Assembly (NCBI GenBank): GCA_900466575.1
Contig: UBMP01000006.1
Span: 62,001 to 126,000, forward strand
DNA from: Hyphomicrobiales bacterium
GTDB taxonomy: Bacteria; Pseudomonadota; Alphaproteobacteria; Rhizobiales; Rhizobiaceae
Direction: 5' to 3'
DNA: 64,000 nucleotides
Shown here: piece by piece, positions 1,104-5,680 of the stretch
Layout of the letters: the number at the start of each line of letters is the position of its first letter
Position numbering within the stretch: position 1 is the first letter of the stretch
Program-made: the position numbers and the translations under genes
The notes under the pieces: generated by a model
Databases searched by the model: none
What the model was told of the DNA's origin: nothing
Seen by the model: the letters and a program-made list of their open reading frames with translations, nothing else

Positions 1104-1568
1104 ATGCGTCACATCGACTACTCTCCCCTTTATCGCTCCACCGTCGGCTTCGACCGCCTTTTCAACATGCTTGACGGCGTCGGCCAGCCCGACCAGTCGC
1201 AGAGCTATCCGCCCTACAATATCGAGCGGACGGGCGAGAATGCCTATCGCATCACCATGGCCGTTGCCGGCTTCGACGAAAGCGAACTTTCCATCGAAGC
1301 GCGCGAACATGCGCTGACCGTGAAGGGTGAAAAATCCGCCGAAACCGATAAGGATGTCGACTATCTTTATCGCGGCATCGCCAAGCGCGCCTTCGAGCGC
1401 CGCTTCCAGCTTGCCGACTATGTCGAAGTGCGTGGTGCCTCGCTGAAGAACGGCCTGCTCCACATCGACCTCGTGCGCGAAATTCCTGAAACGATGAAGC
1501 CGCGCCGCATCGATATCGTCGCCTCGAAGAGCGAAGCTCCCAAGGCGATCGAAGGCCAGCTCAACTAA
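1104..1568 (+). CDS. Small heat-shock protein, Hsp20 (IbpA-like)
   Basis: This ATP-independent holdase chaperone forms oligomers that keep unfolded proteins soluble for DnaK/ClpB. The product is 154 residues, usual for class A rhizobial sHsps. The alpha-crystallin domain covers about residues 40-135 and carries the conserved A-x-L-x-N-G-L-L stretch at 112-119. A short C-terminal extension holds an I-x-I motif (IDI, 136-138) that would dock a neighbouring subunit. The ATG at 1104 was chosen because AGGAGGA lies five bases upstream and the leader hairpin abuts it; the open frame continues far upstream without meaning. Heat control through the RpoH-like promoter and ROSE-like leader is inferred. 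Confidence 0.93.
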
Positions 1569-1608
1569 GCTGGCTTAATTCCGAACATACTCCTCCGGTT
1601 TGATTGGA

Positions 1609-1645
1609 AGAGGCCCCCGGTTTCCCTGCCGGGGGTCTTTTCTTG
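1609..1645 (+). terminator. Rho-independent terminator of hsp20
   Basis: CCCCCGG (1614-1620) pairs with CCGGGGG (1629-1635) around an 8-base loop, followed by TCTTTTCTT. It lies 40 bases after the hsp20 stop and just before the converging DoxX gene ends. Confidence 0.8.
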
Positions 1646-1652
1646 TTCGGGG

Positions 1653-2234
1653 TCAGGCCATGCGAGGCTGCTGCTGTACAAGGCGTGCGAGGAGGGTATC
1701 CAGCGAGATCGCGCCACCGCCCTTGAGTGCCAGGTAGACCAACGGCACGCTCCAGAGCAGGCGCTGGTCGGTAATGAGGCTGTCGGGGAAGCGGTCGAAG
1801 AGCGCGCCGATGGTCTGGGCATCCGCCATGTGGCCGAAGATGTCGGTCAGCGTCTGGACGATGACGAAGCCGATCATGCCGACGGCTGCCACGCGGGTGA
1901 AGAGACCGACCACGACCAGTGCGGGCAAGATGAGTTCCATATAGGTGCCGAGCGGTACAATGATCTTCCAGGGGAAGAAGGGGAGCGCCGACACATCGCC
2001 GCTGACCGCATCCATCGCCTTCGGCGCGATCTGGTAGTAGGCGCCGTCCTGAATCTGAAAGAAGCCGGCAAAGCCTTCGCCGACCTTCGTGCCGAAGGAG
2101 TTCAGGAAGTAGAAATAGAGCACGGCGAAGAAGACGAAGCGGGTGAAGAGGCCGAGAAACCAGCCCTCCGTCAGCTTCTCCGCAAGGCCGAAGATCCCAT
2201 CGTGCAATTGTTTGATCTTCAATAGAAAATTCAT
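1653..2234 (-). CDS. DoxX-family membrane protein of the bufferin operon
   Basis: This is a 193-residue inner-membrane protein of the DoxX/DoxD family. Four hydrophobic segments are visible at about residues 29-46, 95-112, 115-132 and 158-172. DoxX proteins are often the last gene of bufferin (buf) operons, where their role is unclear; links to thiol or copper redox balance have been proposed. Here it begins one base after the DUF2063 gene ends, so it is very likely cotranscribed and translationally coupled. The start is the ATG reading MNFLLKIKQL; the upstream open frame is a shadow of the previous gene. The family call is firm; the function is inferred from context. Confidence 0.85.
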   Translation of the reverse strand: MNFLLKIKQLHDGIFGLAEKLTEGWFLGLFTRFVFFAVLYFYFLNSFGTKVGEGFAGFFQIQDGAYYQIAPKAMDAVSGDVSALPFFPWKIIVPLGTYMELILPALVVVGLFTRVAAVGMIGFVIVQTLTDIFGHMADAQTIGALFDRFPDSLITDQRLLWSVPLVYLALKGGGAISLDTLLARLVQQQPRMA

Positions 2235-2235
2235 A

Positions 2236-3021
2236 TCACGCAACCTCCATCCCCTCAAACAGGACCTTTGAAAAAGCGCCTGCCTCGATGATTGCCGAAA
2301 TTGCGGCGGGCAGGTTGAAATCCGAATCGGCGGATAGGGCGGCACCTGCCGCGTCGCCGAGCGTTTTGCCTGCAATCAGCAAGCCGACGAAATCCGCGCC
2401 GCCCTTGGGCAGATGGCGGATCTGTGGATCGTAGGCTGGGCGGGTGATCAGGCCGTCTTCCTCGATAAAGGGGTCAAAATCGTCCAGCGGTTGGCCGGCA
2501 CGGTCTCGCGCCATGATCGTCACCGCGGCGTGCTTGCCGCGAAAGAGCCGCGTCGCGGGATGGGCGGCGAAGGTGAGACCGGCAAGCTGTTCGGGGGCGA
2601 CGCGTTGCAGGACCGTGCCGGCCAGCGGGGCGGCGTCGGCGGCGTGGAAGCTGTCGAGCCAGAGCCGTTCAAGCCAGGCGACATCGGGCAGGAAAGGCAG
2701 GTCTGCCGCCGGCTCGAACTGGTCCACAAAGGCTGGAAAGGTGGCGCCATATTCAAAGAGGAGGCGCGAGGTCGGCGGATGATCCTGCACGTAGAGCCGG
2801 GCCATGGCGCGGAAAAACTCCTCCCCGACGAGGTTCTGGATGGTCGGGAAGATTTCGGAAAGCGCGTTGACGAGGCTGACCGCCACGTTGTTGCGATAGA
2901 TGCCGAAGCGTTTGCCGGCCGGTCTGCCCTCCGGTGTCACGAGGCCATCCGGCACGTCGCGATCCGGATCGAGAAGGGCGGCGGCAAAGGCCTGTTGCCG
3001 GGATGACGGGGCATCAGCCAT
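2236..3021 (-). CDS. bufC: DUF2063 protein, HvfC/BufC-type partner of the MNIO enzyme
   Basis: The 261-residue soluble protein has the HvfC/BufC N-terminal domain (DUF2063) over roughly residues 8-100, with [17 protein letters not shown] as its recognisable core. The rest matches the variable C-terminal half of these proteins. In MNIO systems this partner binds the precursor leader and helps the DUF692 enzyme modify cysteines; that role is from knowledge of the family. Its ATG overlaps the end of the DUF692 gene by eight bases, which supports the chosen start and translational coupling. The older label putative DNA-binding protein is not supported by anything I see. Confidence 0.85.
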
Positions 3022-3913
3022 GGCGTGCGCCCATGAGATAGGTGCTGGCGTGGCGGGCCAGGATCGCGTCGGCGGCCTGCGCCTCTCGCCGGAGCACCGG
3101 CCATTCGGGAACGTCATTGTCCCATTCGATGAGGGTCGGCAGCGGACCGGTCTGGCTGATGACGATATTGTAGAGATGCCAGACCTCGTCATCCACCGGG
3201 CGGTCGTGGGCATCGATCAGCAGGCGCGCGCCGTCCTCGTCTTCGTCTTCCGCATGGCCTGCAAGGTGGATTTCCTCCACGAGTTCGAGCGGGAAATCGT
3301 GCAGATAGGTGAGCGGCTTGAAGCGGTTGTTGACGGATGAGACGAGAACGTTGTTCACGTCGAGCAGCAGACCGCAGCCGGTGCGGCGGGCGATCTCGCG
3401 AATGAAGTCCGTTTCGCTCATGGTCGAGCGCTCGAAGAGGGCGTAGGTCGAGGGATTTTCGAGCAGGATCTTTCGGCCGATCGCCAACTGCACACTATCT
3501 ATGTGATCGCAGACGCGGTCGAGTGTCTCGCGATCGTAGGGAACCGGCAGAAGATCGTTGAAATAGCTGTCGTCATGCGTCGACCAGGCTAGGTGCTCGG
3601 ACACCTGTTCGGGCTCGTAGCGCTCGACGACGGCCTTGAGACGCGAAAGGTGCATGGCGTCGAGCCCTTTCTCCGAGCCGATCGAGAGACCGACGCCATG
3701 CACAGAGAGCGGAAAATGCTCCCGCATGCGGTTCAGCAGGCGATGCGGGTGACCGCCAGCCCCCATGTAGTTCTCCGCATGCACTTCCAGGAAACCGATC
3801 CGGTAGCCGTCCGCGAGGATCGCGTCGGCATGGACGGATTTGAAGCCGGCGCCAGCGCGAGCGGGCAACGTCTTGCCGTTTCGGGCAGGGTGGCCGAGAG
3901 CTTCCGGTTTCAT
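3014..3913 (-). CDS. bufB: DUF692 multinuclear non-heme iron oxidase (MNIO), BufB-type
   Basis: The enzyme is 299 residues, a TIM-barrel DUF692 protein that uses iron ions to convert cysteines of a precursor peptide into oxidised heterocycles. The typical metal-binding motifs follow in order: [11 protein letters not shown] (41-51), [10 protein letters not shown] (70-79), SEHLAWS (105-111), LLENPSTY (150-157), LLLDVNN (182-188), EIHLAGH (214-220), DAHDRPV (234-240) and LIEWDND (261-267). The conserved His, Glu, Asp and Asn residues are all present, so it should be active. It lies between the precursor gene and the DUF2063 partner on the same strand. Assignment to bufferin synthesis rests on this neighbourhood. 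Confidence 0.9.
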
Positions 3914-4112
3914 GACATTCTTCCTTCAAATGAAATTGGTCATAAAAATGCGACGCCCCAGCCGAGGGTAGCCCGGACGCCGGATTCAAAGGTCAATGCC
4001 ACGCCTCTTCTTGTCCGGGTTCGGAACCGCGGACGGCTGAGGCATCGACACAGGTCTGGTTGTCCGGGCTTCAGACGCTGCAATAAGCGTCTGCCGCTCT
4101 CTCAGGCTGCTC

Positions 4113-4424
4113 TCAGGCCGGCAGATCTCGCTTCAGGGCTTCCAGCGAGCCCTTGCGGTCGCCCGGGAGCTTCATCGTCATGCAGGTGCCCTTGGCGACA
4201 TATTTCCAGGAGTTGCCTTGATAATCGACTTTGGATGTGCCGGCGCAGGTCGTGCCGGGGCCAGCGGCACAGTCGTTCTTGCCGGCCATTGCGACGCCGA
4301 AGCACTTTTCCTTGGCGTCATCGGCTGCAGCCGGGGTGACGGACGAGACAAAGGTCGTGGCGGAAACGGCCATCATGAGGGCGCTGGCTACTGCAGATGC
4401 GCCAATTACAGTCTTGGTGGACAT
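4113..4424 (-). CDS. bufA: DUF2282 bufferin precursor peptide, secreted
   Basis: This 103-residue precursor has a cleavable signal (hydrophobic stretch about residues 7-28, likely cut after PAAA at 31-34). The mature part has four cysteines at 41, 52, 60 and 81, in the bufferin pattern [27 protein letters not shown]. Known bufferins are ribosomally made, MNIO-modified periplasmic peptides that bind copper, with the two central cysteines becoming thiooxazoles and the outer two a disulfide; that chemistry is from the family, not visible here. GAGGAG lies eight bases before the ATG. A short inverted repeat (CGTTTA/TAAACG, 4538-4557) sits upstream and might be regulatory. It is the first gene of the operon. 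Confidence 0.9.
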
Positions 4425-4627
4425 TATGGATCTCCTCAAATTGTTGGGTTCGACGAGGTTGAAATTCCCGCCGCCGGGCCGCTCTGGTCCGGTGAAAAGA
4501 AGCTCGCACATTTCATCTTAAAATGGAAATCAAGCCGCGTTTACCCAGCGATAAACGGCGTGTGATCGCGGCGTGACACATACGTCATCAACAGCGCGTC
4601 TGGCGTGAAGCCTCCGTGATCTCGAGG

Positions 4628-5680
4628 TTACCCAAGAAGCGCGATAAAGCAATCCACGTCCGAAACGTCCGTGGCAAAAGCGGTCACGAGGCGGACAAGC
4701 GTCTCATCGGGTGCCATCGTGTCATGCAGATGCTCGGGAATCTCATGCCAGTCGTAGAACTGGGCGCCGGCGTCCCGCAGGCGCTGTGCGGCATCGTTGC
4801 GCAAGATGGCGAAAACTTCGTTGGCATTCGTTTCCCAGGCGGCGCGGGCATGGGCGCTCGCCGCAATGCCGGCGCGCAGGCGATCGGCCATGGCATTGGC
4901 ATGAGACGCGAGTTCGAGCCAGAGCCCGTCCTCGAAATACGCTTCGAACTGGGCGGCGACGAAGCGCGTCTTGGAGAAGAGTTGGGCCGACTGCTTCCGG
5001 ATGAAGGGCAATTGGCGGGCCTGCTCCGGGTTCATGAAGACGATGGCTTCGGCGCACCAGCAGCCGTTCTTCGTTGCGCCGAAGGAGAGGATATCGACGC
5101 CGCGTTTCCATGTCATTTCGGCTGGCGAGACATCAAGCGCCGTCAGCGCATTGGCGAAGCGCGCGCCATCCATATGAAGCGGGATGTCGTGGCTCTTGGC
5201 GATGCCGGCGATGCGCTCGATTTCTTCCAGAGAATAAAGCGTGCCCGACTCGGTCGATTGGGTCACTGTGACCGCCATTGGCTGACCGGCATGAATGAAG
5301 GCGGGGGGCACGGCGCGGATGCCGCGCTCGAGGCTCAATGGATCGATTTTGCCATCCTTGCCGGCGATCGGCGAAAGGCGGGCGGCGCTGGAAAAGAAGC
5401 CCGGCGCGCCGCACTCGTCGCAGAAGACATGCGCGCTGTCATGGCAGAAGATGACACCGCCGGGCTTGCCGACGCTCGCCAGCGCCAGCGAGTTGGCGGC
5501 CGTCCCCGTCGAGACAAAGAAGACTGCGACCTCACGTTCGAAGATCTCGTTGAAGGTCTGCTCGACCTTTTTGTCGAGTGCGGATGTGCCATAGGCTGAG
5601 GCAAACCCACCGGCTTCGGTCGTCAGCCGCTGAGCAATTTTCGGATGGGCGCCAGCCCAGTTATCGGAGGCAAAAAACAT
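4628..5680 (-). CDS. ltaE: Low-specificity L-threonine aldolase
   Basis: This PLP enzyme of the fold-type I beta-eliminating lyase group cleaves threonine and allo-threonine to glycine and acetaldehyde in the cytoplasm. The 350 residues include FFVSTGTAAN (54-63), which holds the cofactor phosphate, HMDGAR (169-174), and the Schiff-base lysine Lys204 in SFGATKNG. Length and motifs fit the family. It is monocistronic by position, diverging from gltB across a 535-base region. The alternative beta-hydroxyaspartate or phenylserine aldolase activity cannot be excluded, because these families share the fold. Confidence 0.9.
   Translation of the reverse strand: MFFASDNWAGAHPKIAQRLTTEAGGFASAYGTSALDKKVEQTFNEIFEREVAVFFVSTGTAANSLALASVGKPGGVIFCHDSAHVFCDECGAPGFFSSAARLSPIAGKDGKIDPLSLERGIRAVPPAFIHAGQPMAVTVTQSTESGTLYSLEEIERIAGIAKSHDIPLHMDGARFANALTALDVSPAEMTWKRGVDILSFGATKNGCWCAEAIVFMNPEQARQLPFIRKQSAQLFSKTRFVAAQFEAYFEDGLWLELASHANAMADRLRAGIAASAHARAAWETNANEVFAILRNDAAQRLRDAGAQFYDWHEIPEHLHDTMAPDETLVRLVTAFATDVSDVDCFIALLG

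Follow-up and report, generated by a model that had tools for sequence, protein, structure and literature searches.

A Buf1-type bufferin operon from a Rhizobium-like bacterium and candidate cis elements for its control

The four genes and their products

The stretch of DNA analysed here, 64,000 nt long and called the window below, carried four intact reading frames on its minus strand: bufA (4113-4424), which encodes a precursor of the Buf1 (DUF2282) type of 103 aa, bufB (3014-3913) for an MNIO enzyme of 299 aa, bufC (2236-3021) for a DUF2063 partner protein and doxX (1653-2234) for a DoxX-family membrane protein. According to the gene coordinates, bufA and bufB were separated by 199 bp, bufB and bufC overlapped by 8 bp and the bufC-doxX junction measured 1 bp. 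An earlier reading made from the letters alone (the sequence-only reading) had proposed a bufABC-doxX operon of four genes on one strand, with overlapping or 1-base junctions after the enzyme gene. Both statements were borne out; the coordinates were exact and the family cut-offs were passed. Genes for a precursor, an MNIO, a DUF2063 protein and a DoxX protein also make up the core of the bufferin clusters described in PMC12452194 (papers are cited by PMC number and for the parts of their text covered here).

BufA scored 87.9 bits against PF10048 (DUF2282; cut-off 22.4). Translation placed its cysteines at positions 41, 52, 60 and 81, as the sequence-only reading had listed them. Inspected by eye, the N-terminus showed a basic start, a hydrophobic run and AAA before DD, and resembled a Sec signal. 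The sequence GAGGAG was found just 5' of the bufA ATG in all six genomes of the genus. With four cysteines and 18.9 bits against the NCBIfam BufA2 model (cut-off 60), the precursor fell outside the Buf2 class, whose members have six or twelve cysteines. BufB scored 342.5 bits against PF05114 and cleared the NCBIfam bufferin-maturase model NF050167 (MNIO_BufB) with 372.6 bits (cut-off 310). The sequence-only reading had named a match of the precursor to the DUF2282 model as the check on its bufferin assignment, and the scores of BufA and BufB together support that assignment.

The other two products were assigned at general Pfam cut-offs only: BufC by 97.7 bits against PF09836 (DUF2063; cut-off 27.2) and DoxX by 29.2 bits against PF07681 (cut-off 23.6). 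Both stayed under the cut-offs of the corresponding NCBIfam models, BufC with 36.5 bits against 142 for HvfC and DoxX with 22 bits against 80 for HvfX. When solved structures were searched by sequence, the closest to BufB was PDB 3bww (E 5e-36); nothing was retrieved for BufA at E up to 0.1 or for BufC at E up to 0.01. A search of the source genome gave a single DUF2282 match and a single MNIO match.

Conservation of the operon and its chromosomal site

DUF2282 was found in 157 of 297 sampled genomes of the family, which the named relatives point to as Rhizobiaceae, and in 106 of 199 sampled genomes of the order, and MNIO in all six genomes of the genus, the source genome counted. Scanning named genomes gave 259 confirmed BufB relatives, and the loci of the best 80 were kept. 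Among these 80 the nearest BufB proteins were those of Rhizobium sp. C1 (93% identical), isolate AFS022961 (91%) and Rhizobium sp. C4 (90%). In 78 of the 80 loci bufA lay directly upstream of bufB, with bufC next, all on the same strand. The two exceptions, L073 and L089, end at a contig edge and were left out of further comparisons. The association of the genes therefore goes beyond chance. The set of 80 operons used from here on consists of the 78 complete loci, the window and L037, another genome of the genus.

The spacing of the precursor cysteines was 11-8-21 in 78 of these operons, the window counted, and 11-7-21 in the remaining two. Since DUF2282 is present in about half of the family genomes sampled, the cysteine spacing is common to nearly all operons and the gene set has already been published (PMC12452194), the locus is, as judged from its sequence, an ordinary Buf1 bufferin operon. 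The family is widespread and well described, and the four genes, being one further example of it, carry little weight alone. A characterised rhizobial bufferin was not found in the open-access literature covered, and the main texts of PMC12452194, PMC12668002 and PMC13097082 do not mention rhizobia. A tandem pair of bufA genes 5' of bufB was seen in 15 of the 80 operons, mostly in records titled Rhizobium (L075, L092, L097, L098, L100, L104-L107, L109, L111-L113, L116 and L117). Plasmid records with partial matches to the operon DNA numbered 223, and none of them covered more than 80% of the operon.

In the window the operon is flanked by a threonine aldolase gene (4628-5680, minus strand) and by the small heat-shock gene ibpA (1104-1568, plus strand). 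By tblastn over the 80 operons DoxX was detected in 45, the aldolase in 44, ibpA in 44 and all three in 40. The aldolase gene lay mostly upstream of bufA; in three more distant loci (L080, L093 and L118) it was situated after doxX on the same strand. We considered the aldolase as a partner of the operon and rejected it for this locus on the basis of a survey of the 30 best-scoring aldolase loci among the matches in 106 family genomes. In 16 of these ibpA was nearby with no bufA seen, six had bufA, and eight had neither within about 1.5 kb. Most simply, aldolase and ibpA would form the background to the operon, and we infer from this arrangement that the operon occupies a site where it has been gained or lost.

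Candidate control elements upstream of bufA and in the bufA-bufB interval

All elements described in this section lie on the operon strand. The one proximal to the putative promoter is the TTGATTTCCATTT box (4521-4533), conserved as TTGATTT. Of the 44 aldolase-linked operons, 42 had this motif within 200 nt of bufA, as did 3 of the 36 others and 2.7% of shuffles; these counts, like those of the repeat below, overstate the evidence because related genomes are not independent. In the aldolase-linked operons it sits 82 to 135 nt before the bufA start. A clear sigma-70 partner hexamer to the TTGATTTCCATTT box was not seen by eye, and no sigma-70-type promoters were found in 1500-4800.

Further upstream there are two direct repeats, a proximal TCAC-N7-TCAC (4562-4576) and a distal TCACG-N6-TCACG (4604-4619; TCACGGAGGCTTCACG, contig 66604-66619). 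Within 320 nt of bufA, TCAC-N7-TCAC was present on the coding strand of 19 of the 80 operons and on the opposite strand of two; the 19 comprise all six genomes of the genus, eight of the nine loci titled Hoeflea and five others. As controls, 18 of 4000 shuffled upstream regions contained the repeat, and 239,826 downstream bases gave two coding-strand matches. Two TCAC repeats were found per locus in five of the six genus genomes, and one each in the sixth (L042) and in eight of the nine Hoeflea loci. Over the whole genome TCACG-N6-TCACG had nine matches against two for its reversed control, and TTGATTTCCAWTT, one mismatch being allowed, had 12 against three for its control. When the open frames near the 12 TTGATTTCCAWTT sites were read by eye, no pattern of metal genes was seen. 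The CenR motif, TGA-N8-TGA (PMC9275681), was considered for the TCAC repeat and differs from it. From a direct repeat with an 11-bp period one might guess at an OmpR-type response regulator. If this is true, periplasmic copper buffering would be tied to an envelope two-component system.

A search of the source genome for NrsF (PF06532), the anti-sigma factor of Caulobacter SigF, returned no matches at E up to 0.001, while the Caulobacter positive control was detected. Because NrsF was not found, the regulation of this bufferin probably differs from that in Caulobacter, and the copper induction known from Caulobacter is therefore not transferable to this operon.

A hairpin in the 5' untranslated region, seen by eye in several genera, was rejected for the window, where 4425-4580 had a z of -0.60 and 52 of 200 shuffles folded as low. 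Elsewhere z fell below -1.5 in this region in 15 of the 44 aldolase-linked operons and in 2 of the 36 others. For the hairpin of the Rhizobium group nine sequences were picked by eye; they showed no both-side change relative to the commonest pair, one pair held UA, UG and CG, and the covariation score was matched by 210 of 500 shuffles, which is uninformative either way.

The sequence-only reading had taken the gap of 200 bases between precursor and enzyme genes as a sign that the precursor is made in excess. Gap length lends this no support. With bufB starts assigned by script, the gap measured 199-215 bp in four of the six genomes of the genus (the window and three others), the other two having gaps of about 80 bp, and it ranged from 3 to 215 bp over the 80 operons (median 71.5). 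The idea may be kept alive by the predicted structure of the gap RNA instead. In the window the interval (3914-4112, 199 nt) is predicted to fold into an 8-bp stem close behind the bufA stop codon, followed by a larger nested hairpin, at -81.4 kcal/mol (z -3.83; none of 200 shuffles as low).

Covariation was assessed in the four long-gap genomes by mapping them onto the window's own fold, a procedure which favours that fold. Paired cells amounted to 76.1% against 71.9% in shuffles (0 of 500 as high), and versions slid along the sequence reached at most 51.8%. Pairs changed on both sides numbered eight against 3.8 in shuffles (9 of 500 as high), in four sequences only, and the control slid by +2 gave nine. 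In the first stem (helix 2) both-side changes were found at six of the eight pairs, although only 68.8% of its cells pair in the four sequences.

Other genera also have strong stems, of different sequence, between bufA and bufB. Of the 80 operons, 24 have a perfect stem containing seven or more G-C pairs within the 110 nt that follow bufA, compared with 1.8% of 1580 shuffles; 19 of these belong to the 44 aldolase-linked operons and 5 to the 36 others. The window's own first stem has five G-C pairs, fails this rule and is thus among the 56 operons without such a stem. Gaps of 27-44 bp were found in seven of the nine loci titled Hoeflea and in eight of the ten titled Mesorhizobium, and among these 19 loci only L043, with a gap of 73 bp, has a stem of this kind. 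In two other genomes of the genus, L039 and L040, a single terminator-like stem with a T run (4949-4964 in each) lies about 36 bp before bufB; it was scored in three overlapping versions each, and L039 has a further, fourth site on the opposite strand. A pattern scan of the window's gap found nothing resembling a terminator on the operon strand. The gap was rejected as a dispersed repeat, a 151-bp query matching the genome once, at itself, at E up to 0.01, and likewise as a known RNA, there being no Rfam match in it at E up to 1. The sole Rfam match in 1500-4800 at that threshold lies at 1607-1642 on the other strand and, at 21.9 bits, fell short of its gathering score of 72.2.

A rival to a role for this interval is that the long structured gap is a functionless change at the level of the genus, with bufA and bufB co-transcribed at similar levels. 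The occurrence of gaps of about 200 bp in four of the six genomes of the genus, the count from the +2 slid control and the lack of an Rfam match all favour this reading, to which we give somewhat less than an even chance. Against it stand the fold, which is far stronger than that of shuffles, the both-side changes in helix 2 and the strong stems in the same interval of other genera. It is plausible that part of the family processes or stabilises a separate bufA message, and a gap RNA structure modelled in this way could raise the precursor over the enzyme.

Taken together, the elements permit a broader, tentative proposal, in our view rather unlikely as a whole. It holds that where bufferin operons of Rhizobiaceae occupy the aldolase-ibpA site they are controlled by the TTGATTT box and, in the genus and in Hoeflea, by a tandem TCAC-N7-TCAC operator that replaces SigF/NrsF, joined in part of the family by an intercistronic RNA that sets precursor over enzyme. 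Such a layer of control is not described in the parts of the literature covered. The cis elements are new leads, and modest ones. The operon's shared chromosomal site in many Rhizobiaceae, the conserved upstream DNA and the failure to find NrsF offer a start for work on bufferin sensing and on the balance of peptide and enzyme.

Proposed function and comparison with known systems

As a whole the locus is best explained, with high confidence, as a Buf1 bufferin operon from a Rhizobium-like bacterium, with a putative copper-binding, modified peptide as its product. Genes, families, cysteine pattern, gene order and conservation were observed here; the modification sites, the disulfide and copper binding are taken over from characterised relatives. 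In Buf1 bufferins the central cysteines are modified and the first and last are joined in a disulfide, and the thiooxazoles sequester copper in the periplasm (PMC12452194). By analogy, BufA would be synthesised with a Sec signal and would still be cytoplasmic when BufB, docked via BufC, turns its Cys52 and Cys60 into 5-thiooxazoles; BufB belongs to the multinuclear non-haem iron oxidative enzymes. After modification BufA would be exported, the Cys41-Cys81 disulfide would form, and the mature peptide would bind excess copper in the periplasm. DoxX would act as a conserved accessory membrane protein. Two further steps are put forward weakly: the RNA structure of the 199-nt gap might set or protect the end of the bufA message and so favour precursor over enzyme, and transcription might be set by the locus-specific promoter box and not by SigF/NrsF.

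The same peptide might serve mainly in the response to a metal other than copper (gold, silver, chromate or cadmium) or to oxidative or sulfur stress, copper buffering being secondary. Relatives in Caulobacter are part of a chromate and cadmium response (PMC3511200), a Cupriavidus cluster is raised by gold, silver and copper (PMC8224329), DoxX has been tied to oxidative or sulfur stress (PMC12452194), and NrsF was not found in the source genome. We nevertheless consider this improbable, for PMC12452194 describes bufferins as binding copper and a copper-independent function of a Buf1 peptide was not found in the covered parts of the literature. That the genes survive as a non-functional remnant, or that this BufB does not act on the precursor, is very improbable: some precursor genes elsewhere are separate from MNIO genes (PMC12452194), but direct support for a remnant was not found, the four frames are intact and conserved, and DUF2282 and MNIO each match the source genome once.

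The Buf1 assignment also sets the locus apart from other MNIO systems. Oxazolin, fontiphorin and gonophorin, the EGKCG captophorins (PMC12668002), are likewise made into thiooxazoles by an MNIO with a DUF2063-type partner. Their precursors carry EGKCG repeats, whereas this motif is absent from BufA, which has four single cysteines and matches DUF2282. For the two-repeat FonA peptide a mass loss of 8 Da is given (PMC13097082), which we read as about 4 Da for each modified cysteine. Methanobactin is a copper-binding product of the same MNIO superfamily, but BufB, with 52.4 bits against the MbnB model (cut-off 325), did not qualify as an MbnB-type MNIO. The gig operon of Cupriavidus metallidurans and Legionella pneumophila, which belong to other classes of Pseudomonadota, has a related gene set and is responsive to gold and copper in those hosts. 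Gold-linked operons that belong to the bufferin clusters are mentioned in PMC12452194, and the Caulobacter cluster has also been studied in C. metallidurans (PMC8224329).

A further close relative is the four-gene operon of Caulobacter, CC3254-CC3257, beside sigF (CC3253), where the same four families are encoded in the same order with the DUF2282 precursor first. The Caulobacter operon is induced by copper and a sigF mutant is copper sensitive (PMC8224329); induction by chromate and cadmium and a SigF site, GTAACC-N16-CGAA, have been reported as well (PMC3511200). The present operon differs from it as follows: NrsF was not found in the genome, bufA is preceded by the TTGATTT box and the TCAC repeats, and bufA and bufB are separated by a 199-nt gap with a predicted RNA structure.
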